This document shows, piece after piece, positions 8,537 through 45,475 of a stretch of DNA of 45,475 nucleotides; position 1 is the first letter of the stretch, and each line of letters starts with the position of its first letter. The stretch lies in the IMG/VR virus record IMGVR_UViG_3300023199_000149, positions 1 through 45,475 of that record; one strand, given 5' to 3'. Below the pieces are notes generated by a model. The model was not told the origin of the DNA. It was given only the letters and a program-made list of their open reading frames with translations, and ran no database searches. A program made the position numbers and the translations under genes. The DNA is from a virus.

Positions 8537-8670
8537 TTCTGGACAGACGGTAGAAGGGAAAAATGACCGTCAGAACGGCTGTATGTAAGGGATAGAGATC
8601 TAACGCCACCAAAAGCGGTTTTTGGACAGGATCGTTTTAAAATGCGTTTTTTTCGGATCAGTTTCTGGAC
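8537..8670. promoter_or_regulatory. Left-end transposase-binding sites (L1-L3 equivalents)
   Basis: Three related sites in the same orientation occur: TTCTGGACAG (8537-8546), TTTTTGGACAG (8619-8629) and AGTTTCTGGAC (8660-8670). The third 11-mer is identical to the reverse complement of both right-end sites. The number, spacing and inverted relation to the right end match Mu-type transposase binding arrays. Confidence 0.65.
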
Positions 8671-25713: not shown

Positions 25714-27137
25714 TGGCTAGAACATCCAAAAAGAAGCAGCCAAAGCCCGTCTTTAACGAGATCACAGCTGCAGGCGGTACGACAATGGGTGTCGCATTCA
25801 GTGACCGCTCCATGGAATCTAACGCAAGAAACATCAAAAGTTGGCGTGGTTTGTTACGTGATCACCAGGTTGGAAGTGTCTGGGAACAACGTCAAGCCGG
25901 TGTCATTGCTGTAGACTGGGAAGTATATCCAGCCAGTGAAGCAGCTAATGATGTGGCAGCCGCAGAGTTCATCAAAGACCAAATCTCAAAAGTCGGCTTT
26001 GACCAGGTCACCAAGAAAATGCATTTCGCACAGTTCTATGGTTTTGCCATTGCAGAATGCATGTGGGCAAAAGACGGAAGTAGAATTGTCCTGGATAAAA
26101 TCGTTGTCCGTGCCCAGGAGCGATTCACCTGGAAAGGTGGCGAACTGTTGTTTACAGGTGGAGGGAACTCCCAAGGCGATCCCCTACCTGATTTCAAAAT
26201 GTGGCATTACACCCTGCCAGGAGATAGTGATGATGTTCCTCATGGTCCTTGCTTAGGCTGGCGACTTTACTGGCCGGTCTTTCTCAAAGAAAATGGCGCT
26301 CGTTTTTGGGCGGTCTTTATTGAGAAATACGGTATGCCAACATCAAAAGGAGAACATCCGACACACGCAACTCAAGAAGAAATCGACAATCTCCTGGCCA
26401 CACTAATGGCTGTACATAGTCAATCAGCTGTCGCTGTACCTGAAGGTTTCAAGCTGGAACTCCTTCAAGCTATGCGTTCTAGCGGTGGAGATTATGAAAA
26501 ATTCCAGGAATACTGGGATAAGGCGGTTTCCAAAGTCATCCTAAGTCAAACGATGACAACTGATGACGGCAGCTCCCAAAGCCAGGCAAACGTTCATGAG
26601 CGTGTTGCCGATAACATCATTCAAGGCGATGCGGACCTGATCTGTGACAGTTTCAACAGAGGGCCAATTGCTTGGCTAACAGCTTGGAATTTCCCTGGTG
26701 CTAATCCTCCAGAGGTATGGCGCCGCATTGCTCAGGAAGAAGACCTGGATAAACGTGCTGATCGAGACAAGAAGGTTTCAGAAGCATCTGGACTAAGGCC
26801 AACAAAAGCTTATGTGGAAGACGTGTATGGTGGCGAATGGGAAGAAACTAACGCCCAGGAAAAACGACAACCGAAAGACCCGGCCTTTGCCGATCGTGAC
26901 GACGAAGCAGATGATGTGGACGAACTCGCAGATCAGCTTGACGATCTTTCTTCAGCAGATTTCGCAGACATCCTTGACGAAATCCGCCAAACATTGAAAG
27001 ACAGTCAGAGCCTCGAAGATGCACAAAGCCGACTGCTTTCTCTGTCATCAAAAATCAAAACAAATGAGATGGCCAAGAAGGTTGCAGGCGGATTAGCGGT
27101 TGCCGATCTGATGGGCCGAGCGAGTGTTGACACATGA
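25713..27137 (+). CDS. Portal protein (DUF935, Mu gp29-like)
   Basis: 474 aa. The DUF935 hallmarks are RGLLRDHQVGSVWEQRQAGV, AQFYGFAIAECMW, AVFIEKYGMPTSKGEHP and LAQEEDLDK-type C-terminal helices; the acidic tail (DRDDEADDVDELADQLDDL) is typical. It forms the dodecameric portal. The stop overlaps the F-like gene (ATGA). Confidence 0.9.
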   Translation: MARTSKKKQPKPVFNEITAAGGTTMGVAFSDRSMESNARNIKSWRGLLRDHQVGSVWEQRQAGVIAVDWEVYPASEAANDVAAAEFIKDQISKVGFDQVTKKMHFAQFYGFAIAECMWAKDGSRIVLDKIVVRAQERFTWKGGELLFTGGGNSQGDPLPDFKMWHYTLPGDSDDVPHGPCLGWRLYWPVFLKENGARFWAVFIEKYGMPTSKGEHPTHATQEEIDNLLATLMAVHSQSAVAVPEGFKLELLQAMRSSGGDYEKFQEYWDKAVSKVILSQTMTTDDGSSQSQANVHERVADNIIQGDADLICDSFNRGPIAWLTAWNFPGANPPEVWRRIAQEEDLDKRADRDKKVSEASGLRPTKAYVEDVYGGEWEETNAQEKRQPKDPAFADRDDEADDVDELADQLDDLSSADFADILDEIRQTLKDSQSLEDAQSRLLSLSSKIKTNEMAKKVAGGLAVADLMGRASVDT

Positions 27138-28369
27138 AGCTGGACGATACCGCTCTCGAGTTCCAGGAAGCAATCGACTATTTCAAAGGTAAGGTAAACC
27201 TTCCCACCAAAGCCTGGACGGATGTTTGGGAAGAACAGCATACCAAAGCCTTTGTCATTGCCGGTGCGACCAAGACGACCATGCTGGAAGATTTTCGCGG
27301 CGCCATTACCAAAGCGATCGAGAACGGAACCACGTTAGAAGAATTTCGCCAGGACTTTGACACCATCGTTGCCAAGCATGGCTGGACCTACAAGGGAAAA
27401 CGCGGTTGGCGTACCAGAGTCATCTTTGAAACCAATCTGCGCACAGCACATGCAGCCGGTCGATGGGATCAGATTGAACGGGTGAAGAAAATCCGTCCAT
27501 ATCTACGATATATCGCTGTGGACGATCAACGCACCCGACGTCAACACAAAGGCTGGGACGGTCTTATCTATCCGGTCGATCACGAATTTTGGAACACCCA
27601 CTATCCTCCAAATGGCTGGGGCTGCAGATGTACAGTTCAATCTCTGTCGGAACGTGATCTTAAGAAAAAAGGTTACAGCGTTTCTTCTTCCATGCCAGCT
27701 GATGGCGTTGATCATCACACCATCAAAACACCTGGTGGGGATATGCAGGTCGAAACACCGGCAGGCATCGACCCTGGTTTTGCCTACAATGTCGGTCGAA
27801 ACCGATTAACCGGCGTTACGCCACCACCTGCACCTGGACAACCAGATCCAGGAAATGGATTGCCTGCAACCACCCCAATGCCGTCACCGCGCAATGTCTC
27901 AACCGCCAAGACCTTGCCCAGCAGTGGCATGACCGAAGATGACTATGCTGATGCCTTCCTGAAAGAGTTTGGCGGTTCAACTTCAAAGCCCGTTCTATTC
28001 ACTGACAAGGTTGGTGAAGTGCTTTCGATTTCCGAGGATCTGTTTAAGGACATCAATGGCGATTGGAAAATTACTAAGGGTGGTCGCGCACCGTATCTGA
28101 GATACCTGGCTGACAACATCAAGGATCCGGATGAAATCTGGTTTGACTGGCAACAACTTGAAAATGGAAAGTGGGTATTGCGACGCCGCTATATGAGCCG
28201 CTTCGATGTATCAGGAAAGCAATTGAGTGGCTATAGCGTCTTTGAGGTAACCAACAAGGGGTGGCGCGAGGTCACAAACTTCACCCCGAAAGCTGATAGA
28301 AAATCGCAAAACCAAGATGAATATTTAGAGAAATGGCGGCGGGGCAGCTTGTTATATCGAAAAAAATAA
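27134..28369 (+). CDS. Mu gpF-like minor head protein fused to a PBECR2-type nuclease domain
   Basis: 411 aa. Residues about 60-200 are the phage_Mu_F head-morphogenesis domain (RVIFETNLRTAHAAGRW, HYPPNGWGCRCTV). A Pro-rich linker lies at about 230-265. Residues about 290-411 match the phage Barnase-EndoU-ColicinE5/RelE-like fold (PBECR2): ISEDLFKDINGDWKITKGGR, DEIWFDWQQLENGKWVLRRR. A nuclease carried inside the virion could be ejected with DNA. Activity is inference. Confidence 0.82.
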   Translation: MKLDDTALEFQEAIDYFKGKVNLPTKAWTDVWEEQHTKAFVIAGATKTTMLEDFRGAITKAIENGTTLEEFRQDFDTIVAKHGWTYKGKRGWRTRVIFETNLRTAHAAGRWDQIERVKKIRPYLRYIAVDDQRTRRQHKGWDGLIYPVDHEFWNTHYPPNGWGCRCTVQSLSERDLKKKGYSVSSSMPADGVDHHTIKTPGGDMQVETPAGIDPGFAYNVGRNRLTGVTPPPAPGQPDPGNGLPATTPMPSPRNVSTAKTLPSSGMTEDDYADAFLKEFGGSTSKPVLFTDKVGEVLSISEDLFKDINGDWKITKGGRAPYLRYLADNIKDPDEIWFDWQQLENGKWVLRRRYMSRFDVSGKQLSGYSVFEVTNKGWREVTNFTPKADRKSQNQDEYLEKWRRGSLLYRKK

Positions 28370-38969: not shown

Positions 38970-40017
38970 CATCACCTTGCATGTTAACGGCTTGAAATGG
39001 GAGGGCTGGCAAAAGGCTGAAGTCACCCGTTCAATGGATGCGGTGTTTGCTTCCTCCACCCTGACCCTGACTAAAGGCTGGCCAGGTAAATATGGTTCGG
39101 ACATTCCTCCGATCAAACGTGGTCAACTTTGCTCCCTGGCTTTGGAAGGTGAAACGGTCATCACCGGCTACGTTAATGAACACGATCTGACGGCTGACAA
39201 GGACGGTTTTGAGCTTAAGATTTCCCCGCGGGACAAAACTGCGTTGTTGTTTAAAAGCTCTGTTCTGAGGGAACCGGCTGAATGGCTGAACCAGACAGCC
39301 TCACAGATTATCTCTGATATTTGCAAGCCGTTTGGCATTAAAGTGGTGACCGTTGCAGATGTTGGGGCCCCATTCAAAAAATTCACTGTCAAACCAGGTG
39401 AAACAGCTCGCCGCGCCATCGAGCGCCTTTGCCGTCACCGCGCCCTATTATTCTTCGCTGACCGTTTTGGGAACCTTGTTTTAACTTCCGTTGATCACGC
39501 TGCCAAAGCGCAAACGGAATTAGTTCATGGTCCAAACGGCAATGTCCTGTCCTGTCGCATCAAAGCTTCTTTAACCGACCGGAATAGTGATTACATTGTG
39601 CGAAGTCAGAGTGCGGGTGAAGACTGGGGTGTAGCATCTCACACAAAGCTAGACGGCATGGCCACTGACCATGGCGTTCCTCTGTATTGCCCTCAAATCG
39701 TCATTGCGGATGAACCAGGTGATGCTGCCTCCCTTCAGAAATTGGCTGTCACAATGGCTTCCCTCAATGCTGGTCGTTCAGCTGAACTTGAATATAGCGT
39801 TGCAGGATGGAAACAGGGCAATACCCTTCCCTTGTGGGATATTAATACATTAGTTCCAGTGCGCGATATCTTCGATGAGAACCAAGATACATGGCTGATC
39901 AAACGCTGTTTTTATAGCGTTAGTGAAGATGTCGCACCGGAGACAAATCTAACGCTGACCAACCCCAAAGCCTACGCGCTGCAGGCAGAGCCTGAAAAAG
40001 ATGAGGGAAGCTGGTAA
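38962..40017 (+). CDS. Baseplate hub protein (Mu gpP / gpD-like)
   Basis: 351 aa. ITLHVNGLKWEGWQKAEVTR, GYVNEHDLTADKDGFELKIS, KPGETARRAIERLCRHRALL and WDINTLVPVRDIFDENQDTW match the Mu P/late-control D family, the hub of the baseplate. It overlaps N by 8 bp and gp45 by 1 bp. Confidence 0.87.
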   Translation: MADITLHVNGLKWEGWQKAEVTRSMDAVFASSTLTLTKGWPGKYGSDIPPIKRGQLCSLALEGETVITGYVNEHDLTADKDGFELKISPRDKTALLFKSSVLREPAEWLNQTASQIISDICKPFGIKVVTVADVGAPFKKFTVKPGETARRAIERLCRHRALLFFADRFGNLVLTSVDHAAKAQTELVHGPNGNVLSCRIKASLTDRNSDYIVRSQSAGEDWGVASHTKLDGMATDHGVPLYCPQIVIADEPGDAASLQKLAVTMASLNAGRSAELEYSVAGWKQGNTLPLWDINTLVPVRDIFDENQDTWLIKRCFYSVSEDVAPETNLTLTNPKAYALQAEPEKDEGSW

Positions 40018-43440: not shown

Positions 43441-44024
43441 TTCATGTATTTTTGGCTAAAATTAATCAAACTTTGATCGTCGTAAATATTGATAACGACA
43501 AAGAAGCCTCAAGTTTTAAAAAAAACAACGAGTGTCGCGAATTAACAGAAACCGAACAGAGCTTGTTTGTTGATGGTCTGCATCTTGCTGGTAGTGAAAA
43601 CACGAGTGTTACAGGCACCGCACTGGATGATGCAGTTATTTCATATCAACCTATGACCACGGATGAAAAAGCACAAAATCTGTGTAAGTTGATTAGTCAA
43701 CATGCGGAAGACCTGATTTCAAAAGGTTTTTTGGTGAACGGTCGCGCTTTTCGCTGTGACGATATTTCAGTTGGACGTCTTTCTGAGATGAAAGATCGAG
43801 CGCAGGATATTGAGACTGAAGATGGTTCTTGGTCTCAAAAGTTTATGACATCTGCCGGAGATGTCATTTCTTTATCTTCAGCTGCCCAAGTGAAAGCTTT
43901 GCATACACGAGCAGTGGATTATGCCGGTGACGTATTATCTGCTTCGGCAACGTTACAGGAAAGCCTTATCGATGATTTTAAAACATCAACTGAATGGCCT
44001 GCTGTGCCGGATTTAACCCTATAA
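43437..44024 (+). CDS. Tail fibre assembly-like protein (DUF4376-type C-terminus)
   Basis: 195 aa, overlapping the fibre gene (ATGA). The C-terminal half (SKGFLVNGRAFRCDDISVGR, FMTSAGDVISLSSAAQVKAL, HTRAVDYAGDVLSASATLQE) resembles DUF4376, found in fibre-assembly chaperones. The N-terminal half is unlike known families. Expected to help fold the fibre. Confidence 0.68.
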   Translation: MIHVFLAKINQTLIVVNIDNDKEASSFKKNNECRELTETEQSLFVDGLHLAGSENTSVTGTALDDAVISYQPMTTDEKAQNLCKLISQHAEDLISKGFLVNGRAFRCDDISVGRLSEMKDRAQDIETEDGSWSQKFMTSAGDVISLSSAAQVKALHTRAVDYAGDVLSASATLQESLIDDFKTSTEWPAVPDLTL

Positions 44025-44033
44025 CAGCAGGGG

Positions 44034-44113
44034 TCAGGATGCGGTAACATCCTGAGCCGGGTGTATGACCCACCCACGACAAAAGCCGCCCCGCCAGCCC
44101 GATCGAGCGGGGC
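44034..44113 (+). terminator. Two hairpins ending the late operon
   Basis: TCAGGATG (44034-44041) pairs with CATCCTGA (44048-44055) around CGGTAA. Then GCCCCGC (44088-44094) pairs with GCGGGGC (44107-44113). Neither has a T-run on the plus strand, while the second has GGCTTTTG on the minus strand. They probably reduce read-through into the com genes. Confidence 0.45.
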
Positions 44114-44138
44114 TAATATCGGATATAAAAGTTAATAA

Positions 44139-44321
44139 ATGGAGTCTTTTCGCTGTGGAAGTTGCAAAAAACTTCTTGGAAAGGTGGGGACCTCTGGTGA
44201 AGTTCAAATCAAATGCCCCCGCTGTAATACTATAAATCATTGGAAGGCCTCTGAGCCTCACACCCTGAATGCCGATGAGCATCATGATCAGAGTGTGAAT
44301 CATGAAAAAGAAGACAAGTAG
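44139..44321 (+). CDS. com: Com-like zinc-finger translational activator
   Basis: 60 aa. Four cysteines C6, C9, C26 and C29 (FRCGSCKKLLGKVG, IKCPRCNTINHW) form the Mu Com zinc finger. Mu Com binds the com-mom mRNA and opens the mom start. Here the gene overlaps the methyltransferase gene by 20 bp, and a hairpin covers that start codon. A TATAAA (44123-44129 region) lies upstream without a clear -35. Confidence 0.85.
   Translation: MESFRCGSCKKLLGKVGTSGEVQIKCPRCNTINHWKASEPHTLNADEHHDQSVNHEKEDK
44282..44305 (+). promoter_or_regulatory. Start-codon hairpin: candidate Com-responsive RNA switch
   Basis: TCATGAT (44282-44288) pairs perfectly with ATCATGA (44299-44305), and the methyltransferase ATG (44302-44304) lies inside the 3' arm. 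The 10-nt loop holds the purine-rich CAGAGTGTGA. This matches the layout of the translation-inhibiting stem-loop relieved by Com in Mu. Confidence 0.6.
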
Positions 44322-45093
44322 TCAAGTCTTACCCATTGCCCCCTATCTTGGGGGCAAACGCAATCTCGCCAAACGCCTTGTTGAGCGTATCAACCAGATC
44401 AACCACATCACATATGCAGAACCATTTGTCGGCATGGGCGGTGTGTTCCTGCGCCGCGATCAGCCGGTCCGATCGGAAGTCATCAACGATATTAGCCAGG
44501 ACATCTTCAATCTTTTTCGACAAATCCAAGAGCATGAAGGTTATTTCACAGACTACCTGTCCAACCAGATGACTATGCGCTCAGAGTTTCAGCGCCTGGT
44601 CAAAGTCCCGCCCGAAGTCCTGACCGACATCCAAAGGGCGGCAAGGTTCCTTTACCTTCAGCGCACCTGCTTTGGGGGTAACCCCAAGCACAACAGCTTC
44701 GGTGTCTCACCGGAACGGGCTGGGCGTTTCAATACCCGCATCCTTAAGCCGATGATCCAGAACCTGCACAATCGCCTGTCTGGGGTCGTGATCGAATGCT
44801 TGCCCTATCATGAGTTCATTGAGCGATATGACAGGCCGAGCACGCTGTTCTATCTCGATCCACCATATTACGGCTGTGAGAAAGACTACGGGAAAAACAT
44901 CTTTAGTCGGGAGGACTTCCAAAAAATCGCCGACCAGATGGCCAGCATCAAAGGTCGTTTCATTCTATCGATTAATGACACGCCAGTGATCAGAGAAGTG
45001 TTTGATGGGTTTGATATGGAGGAAGTCAGTTTGAACTACTCAGTGGCTAGGACAACGTCCAAACAGGCCAGAGAGCTGATAATTTCAAATTAG
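44302..45093 (+). CDS. Dam-like (D12 class) adenine methyltransferase in the mom position
   Basis: 263 aa. Motif X PYLGGKRNLA (14-23), motif I AEPFVGMGGVF (39-49) and motif IV DPPY (186-189) are intact, as is RTCFGGNPKHNSFGVSPE between them. The Dam family usually makes N6-methyladenine, often in GATC; specificity is not shown here. It replaces mom as the modification gene behind com. It has no real Shine-Dalgarno, which fits regulated translation. Confidence 0.88.
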   Translation: MKKKTSSQVLPIAPYLGGKRNLAKRLVERINQINHITYAEPFVGMGGVFLRRDQPVRSEVINDISQDIFNLFRQIQEHEGYFTDYLSNQMTMRSEFQRLVKVPPEVLTDIQRAARFLYLQRTCFGGNPKHNSFGVSPERAGRFNTRILKPMIQNLHNRLSGVVIECLPYHEFIERYDRPSTLFYLDPPYYGCEKDYGKNIFSREDFQKIADQMASIKGRFILSINDTPVIREVFDGFDMEEVSLNYSVARTTSKQARELIISN

Positions 45094-45103
45094 GACGTTA
45101 GAA

Positions 45104-45127
45104 AGGGGCCGCTTGGCCCCTCGTTTC
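45104..45127 (+). terminator. Terminator after the methyltransferase
   Basis: AGGGGCC (45104-45110) and GGCCCCT (45115-45121) form a tight stem with GCTT loop, followed by CGTTTC. It closes the last phage operon just before the right-end transposase sites. Confidence 0.6.
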
Positions 45128-45150
45128 TATCGATCTCTAACGAAAAAACT

Positions 45151-45183
45151 GTCCAGAAACTAACCTGAATTAGTCCAGAAACT
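45151..45183. promoter_or_regulatory. Right-end transposase-binding sites
   Basis: GTCCAGAAACT occurs twice in direct repeat, at 45151-45161 and 45173-45183, 22 bp apart (two DNA turns). Both are the reverse complement of AGTTTCTGGAC at the left end, as expected for inverted transposon ends. Confidence 0.7.
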
Positions 45184-45198
45184 GCCGCCGCGCTATAG

Positions 45199-45203
45199 TT
45201 ATC
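45199..45203. repeat. Candidate attR target-site duplication (GTTAT)
   Basis: This is the second copy of the 5-bp direct repeat at 8516-8520. It lies 18 nt beyond the last right-end site's GTCCAGAA core, a distance comparable to the left end (16 nt). Confidence 0.45.
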
Positions 45204-45283
45204 AGATGATTTCTTGAGGTGTCAGGAATAGCTATCCAAAAAATTCCGAATGAATTCCAAAGTGGGTTTTGGGAGATAAATTC

Positions 45284-45325
45284 CAAAAGAGAAAAGCCTG
45301 TAACTTATTGAAGTTACAGGCTTTA
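45284..45325 (-). terminator. Rho-independent terminator of tRNA-fMet
   Basis: AAGCCTGTAACTT (45294-45306) and AAGTTACAGGCTT (45311-45323) form a 13-bp perfect stem with a 4-nt loop. On the minus strand it is followed by TTTTCTCTTTT. It lies a few bases after the tRNA 3' end. Confidence 0.85.
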
Positions 45326-45327
45326 TT

Positions 45328-45404
<77 letters not shown>

Positions 45405-45424
45405 TTGGTATATTTGTGTATATT

Positions 45425-45467
45425 AAACACAAAGGCCGCCTTTTGAGGGGCGGCATTGTGTTTTTTT
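45425..45467. terminator. Strong hairpin terminator upstream of the tRNA
   Basis: AAACACAA plus GGCCGCC (45425-45440) pairs with GGCGGC plus TTGTGTTT (45449-45463), with TTTT following on the plus strand. The near-symmetric form can work both ways. It should insulate the tRNA from whatever lies to the right. Confidence 0.65.
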
Positions 45468-45475
45468 AATATTGT

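Follow-up and report, generated by a model that had tools for sequence, protein, structure and literature searches.

The com-methyltransferase pair at the right end of a Mu-like prophage

The window, i.e., the whole stretch of 45,475 nucleotides analyzed here (one IMG/VR virus record, IMGVR_UViG_3300023199_000149), contains a Mu-like prophage with MuA-type transposase, portal, sheath, tape measure, and baseplate genes, and its final genes, just before the right end, are com and then a methyltransferase gene. The com gene (44139–44321, plus strand) encodes a 60-aa, four-cysteine zinc-ribbon protein of the Mu Com family, which matches PF10122 (Zn_ribbon_Com; E 5.5e-15; 55 bits, cut-off 22.9) and the PHROG translational regulator (E 1.2e-15), and its alignment with 12 other Com proteins has six invariant columns. 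The second gene (44302–45093, plus strand) overlaps com by 20 bp and encodes a D12-class (Dam-like) N6-adenine DNA methyltransferase of 263 aa (Pfam MethyltransfD12, E 1.4e-27; 97.5 bits, cut-off 22). FVGMGG and DPPY are found in this protein and match FxGxGG and DPPY, which we take to be the motifs of D12 N6-adenine methyltransferases. The first-pass annotation had described a Com-like gene overlapping a Dam-like methyltransferase gene by 20 bp, and all three elements of that description are borne out. The enzyme scored 110.4 bits against the NCBIfam Dam model (TIGR00571), below the cut-off of 114.85, and it belongs to MethyltransfD12 and not to Mom. A search for relatives with the methyltransferase alone confirmed none, a search for near-identical junction patterns gave no match, and no sigma-70-like promoter was found in a scan of 43900–45475.

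Beyond the methyltransferase gene, GTCCAGAAACT occurs twice on the plus strand (45151–45161 and 45173–45183, within 45151–45183) as probable transposase end sites, and inverted copies are found on the left, exact at 8660–8670 and with two mismatches at 8617–8627. Judging from these repeats, the copies at 8617–8670 and 45151–45183 likely mark the prophage ends, with com and the methyltransferase gene as the last pair inside them. A tRNA-Met gene (anticodon cat, minus strand, 45328–45404) lies directly past the right end, which suggests that the record includes host flank. The gene at 27134–28369 encodes a Mu F-like head protein with a fused PBECR2 nuclease-like domain (E 3.8e-29).

Tandem com boxes upstream of the methyltransferase start

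In published SELEX work (PMC6483171), Mu Com selected the loop CC(N)2-3GAG, always within a hairpin closed by C-G. Two hairpins with four-pair stems upstream of the methyltransferase start fit this motif: com box 1 (44245–44258, plus strand; AGGC-CUCUGA-GCCU) and com box 2 (44269–44282, plus strand; AUGC-CGAUGA-GCAU), both flanked by A and C and separated by a linker (44259–44268, plus strand) that is predicted to pair with the SD region of the methyltransferase gene. Box 2 with its flank (44265–44283) is identical to the Mu Com target at 16 of 19 bases, the three differences being loop bases. The tandem scores 34.8 bits with the RNA model R1. Two boxes arose within com in only one of 20,000 dinucleotide shuffles and in six of 20,000 synonymous recodes, while a cruder test, permuting only the existing codons of com, gave them in 669 of 20,000. 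One more box-like site, within a baseplate-hub gene at 39416, scored 11.4 bits with R1 and was dismissed as chance. The Rfam scan returned one tRNA and three matches under gathering scores, none of them at the com boxes.

Conservation of the boxes among com loci

The com loci sampled came from phages and from two larger sets, 490 viral and 430 genome loci, of each of which the best 80 were taken. The Com pattern was present in 173 of the 184 loci, which were reduced to 82 distinct loci after removal of near-copies (at least 80% identity); the other 11, excluded because they lacked the Com pattern or room, include com-less phage loci as well as L018, which has a spacing not captured by the pattern but is matched by R1. 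L001 was excluded as a duplicate. When only the loop motif CC-N2/3-GAG was used as an anchor and no stem was required, 59 of the 82 distinct loci had box 1, 76 had box 2, 56 had both, and three had neither. Outward from the closing pair, the next three pairs show strong complementarity and covary: they are Watson-Crick in 58, 54, and 54 of the 59 box 1 sites (shuffled means 48, 42, and 28.5) and in 72, 67, and 58 of the 76 box 2 sites (shuffled 67, 49, and 24). The fourth flanking position is at background and mostly has A opposite C (52/59 for box 1 and 47/76 for box 2), which gives the element consensus A[NNGC-C-N2/3-GA-GCNN]C. When 73 matches were aligned by fitting to the model, a procedure that favors the structure, 95.2% of cells were paired, all eight pairs showed two-sided changes, and covariation scored 0.398 (0.126 when shuffled and at most 0.113 when slid). 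The model alignment A4 was built from all loci carrying both anchors except L009 and L092 (54 of 56). In rows whose loop has three bases, including that of the window, MAFFT places box 1 out of register.

We considered, and rejected, the possibility that constraint on the Com protein accounts for the conservation of the boxes. Box 2 lies in all three reading frames within com (43, 25, and 8 loci), indicating that it is the RNA that is conserved, and the residues spanning box 1 swap jointly (K..L/F in 26 and R..P in 14 of 48 loci, with three mixed and five others set aside). From these sequence patterns, protein constraint would not readily explain either box.

The com-less relatives of the methyltransferase provide a control. 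Among the best 80 of 567 viral relatives, which are 53–62% identical to the window enzyme, com is present upstream in four and absent in 76; the nearest D12 relatives in this set, up to 62% identical, are from the com-less phages phiKM1, Aussie, and RR1-B and from viral contigs. A box with at least four pairs lies within 100 bases of the start in three of the four com-bearing relatives versus two of the 76 com-less ones, and the latter two look like chance occurrences; box-like sites near the com-less loci L011, L227, and L238 were discarded on the same ground. Applied to these best 80 of 567 relatives, R1 recovered the tandem in three of the four com loci (39.4, 25.8, and 17.6 bits), missed L231, and found nothing above 15.2 bits in the com-less relatives. 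Across 22 genomes picked for containing com, R1 had 30 hits at E up to 0.01, spread over 21 of the genomes, and 28 of the hits lie at a com gene.

Some tandems occur apart from an intact com. At L279 (reverse strand), tandem boxes precede a D12 methyltransferase gene and the com zinc ribbon is missing, while the same genome has another com locus, L291; at L293, an R1 match of 31.9 bits is found without com. In Pseudomonas phage DVM-2008, a second tandem (L007:3383–3418; 46.8 bits) precedes a colicin-M-like gene, and the zinc ribbon of the com there looks broken. Another com lies upstream in the same record, at 1998, which makes these boxes a possible trans-acting case. Five loci (L074, L080, L081, L085, and L289) have tandem boxes followed by a short NGFKYKPQFGV-like frame and then a longer frame in another register.

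Genes downstream of com

Downstream proteins were compared in 71 distinct loci, after omission of 11 of the 82 that lack a 100-aa downstream frame within 100 nt. Pfam assigned 28 of them to D12, 17 to N6_N4, six to C5 methylases, and six to Mom, and among the remainder were B_lectin (three), baseplate gp25 (two), levansucrase (one), and others; for the gp25 pair, the wrong frame may have been chosen. The first-pass annotation had presented the methyltransferase as standing in the place of mom. With D12 in 28 and Mom in six of the 71 loci, it is not exceptional, nor is it new, since a com-Dam pair is already annotated in phage B3. A quick tree of 75 D12 enzymes requires that com was gained or lost 11 times, with six or more of these events forced by well-supported branches, and the nearest row to the window enzyme is com-less.

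Predicted closure and release of the ribosome site

In the predicted main fold, 44258–44268 pairs with 44288–44298 (plus strand) over 11 positions with one mismatch, the inner pairs having probabilities of 0.72–0.95 in context. The 3' arm of this stem holds an SD-like GAG (44291–44293), which we consider the probable SD of the methyltransferase gene. The SD region has a mean unpaired probability of 0.15, below 30 of the 33 other starts in the window, while the ATG is mostly free (0.75 unpaired).

A different lock had been proposed in the first-pass annotation, namely a hairpin hiding the methyltransferase ATG (44282–44305, plus strand; arms 44282–44288 and 44299–44305). The perfect 7-bp inverted repeat TCATGAT/ATCATGA does exist, with 10 bases between its arms and the ATG inside, and a comparable one is absent from the 33 other window starts that were tested. 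It excludes the SD-hiding stem and is excluded by it. Its pairing probability is 0.02–0.27 in four contexts with the upstream linker and reaches 0.5–1.0 only without the linker, so that it appears as a minor fold, and the preferred fold closes the SD region instead. By itself the hairpin is weak evidence, since 224 of 5,000 ATG-keeping shuffles produce one. In other com-linked genes, perfect hairpins of this sort show only a slight enrichment over shuffles (arms of at least 7: 3/70 genes vs 3/700 shuffles; at least 6: 4/70 vs 16/700; at least 5: 10/70 vs 52/700). The hairpin was therefore rejected as the main lock.

Closure of the ribosome site was also assessed over the com loci as opening cost relative to context shuffles. 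Starts linked to com have a mean z of 1.57 (n = 71), rising to 2.00 for D12 genes only (n = 26), against −0.39 for com's own starts (n = 70) and 0.00 for 33 other window genes. When the boxes were locked as hairpins, the cost fell by a mean of 3.57 kcal versus 1.92 in shuffles (n = 66; larger in 47/66), and with a 3-base footprint added, by 4.42 versus 2.45 kcal (n = 66; larger in 54/66). For the window alone, closure is modest, with a z of 1.7, a value reached in two of 30 shuffles and in 10 of 33 window genes; with the boxes fixed, its cost is no higher than in shuffles (9.40 vs 9.41 kcal, 7/15 as high). Locking the window boxes lowers the cost by 0.2 kcal without the footprint and by 6.9 kcal with it. 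The mean unpaired probability of SD and start did not differ between 71 com-linked and 43 other genes (p 0.12 and 0.16), and the blocking folds vary from locus to locus.

A probable Com-dependent translational switch and the alternatives

These observations are best accommodated by a Com-dependent translational switch, to which we assign a probability of roughly 0.77, in which the linker hides the methyltransferase SD and Com frees it. In the absence of Com, the linker between the boxes would pair with the SD region and the methyltransferase would go untranslated. Com made from the same message would then bind both boxes as hairpins, and its footprint would extend into the flanking bases; because these would be covered, the linker could no longer hold the SD, and ribosomes would initiate at 44302. 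Methylation of phage DNA would accordingly lag behind Com and fall late in the cycle, which agrees with the position of the pair after the tail genes. That the Com of the window binds the window boxes, and that the outcome is activation of the methyltransferase, we infer. The switch suggested by the first-pass annotation is well supported, by the tandem boxes and the predicted SD-hiding stem, its ATG hairpin being only a minor alternative.

Ribosomes finishing com might instead open the structure and start on the methyltransferase with Com playing no active part. Such plain translational coupling fits the 57 of 71 distinct loci in which com overlaps the downstream start, and a ribosome translating com passes both boxes and the linker; however, coupling alone leaves unexplained the covarying, SELEX-matching hairpins and the use of every frame by box 2, and 14 of the 71 pairs have no overlap. 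We regard it as unlikely as a full explanation, though coupling may act alongside Com. Still less probable is that Com opens the ATG hairpin as the regulatory lock, given its low pairing probability in full context, its frequency in shuffles, and its weak enrichment in related pairs, even if its perfect arm holds an ATG as in no other tested start of the window; it adjoins box 2 and could form a second lock after the SD stem opens. The boxes might, finally, serve Com self-repression or mRNA stability instead of activating the next gene. They do lie within com itself, and the sequence would by itself suit either sign of regulation. Nevertheless, Mu Com is a documented activator (PMC6483171), box 2 lies 15–24 nt from the next start in most loci, and unusual closure is seen at the downstream ribosome sites but not at com's own, which makes this reading very improbable.

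Relation to known systems and wider meaning

The locus resembles Mu com-mom in the Com zinc ribbon, in the hairpin loop C-NNN-GA with a C-G closing pair, in the target 19-mer save three loop bases, and in the overlap of the two genes as the last pair before the right phage end. It differs in having two boxes where Mu has one canonical box, and a D12 methyltransferase in place of Mom; moreover, the stem beside the Mu box holds the GUG start (PMC6483171), whereas in the window the linker between the boxes is predicted to hide the SD. A close counterpart is B3ORF47/48 of Pseudomonas phage B3, annotated as a Com translational regulator overlapping a Dam methylase (31 bp), where both com boxes are present; its methyltransferase is only about 40% alike and its blocking fold is another. 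In phage KS5, com adjoins an N4/N6 methylase (PMC3091744), as is annotated for phage AP3 too. Pseudomonas com genes ahead of lectin-like bacteriocins and levansucrase have been published (excerpts of PMC6240691 and PMC3899960); they share the Com protein and the same boxes with the window, but their cargo is not DNA modification. The available text of PMC6240691 leaves the role of Com to be explored, and neither it nor that of PMC3899960 describes an RNA element at these com genes; likewise, the accessible parts of PMC3447690 and PMC4553209 describe none for com-methyltransferase pairs. In the open-licence literature, mostly represented by titles and the openings of abstracts, we recognized no description of a conserved tandem com box. 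The pair would thus belong to a known kind of switch, of which the tandem-box variant seems to be the usual form and the breadth is new.

Because paired hairpins of this one kind are found at most of the com loci examined, ahead of many different enzymes, the element looks like a portable phage switch and not a one-off. On balance, we lean towards viewing it as an autonomous RNA control module that brings along its own trans-acting protein, inserted by phages and bacteria ahead of unrelated genes (for DNA-modifying enzymes of four kinds, lectin-like bacteriocins, and levansucrase), and whose boxes can outlive a broken com and be served in trans, as may be the case at L007:3383–3418 and L279.

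The com-mom pair of Mu is a classic translational switch that has mostly been studied as a single case, and the loci compared here suggest a broad Com class, with Mom as the partner in only a minority. The RNA consensus of two four-pair hairpins predicts Com targets, and the tandem boxes offer a reason for the position of com before bacteriocin and levansucrase genes. The Com-hairpin pair serves as an RNA tag, and com loci supply natural variants of it. The role of the many Com proteins thereby becomes testable with reporters.
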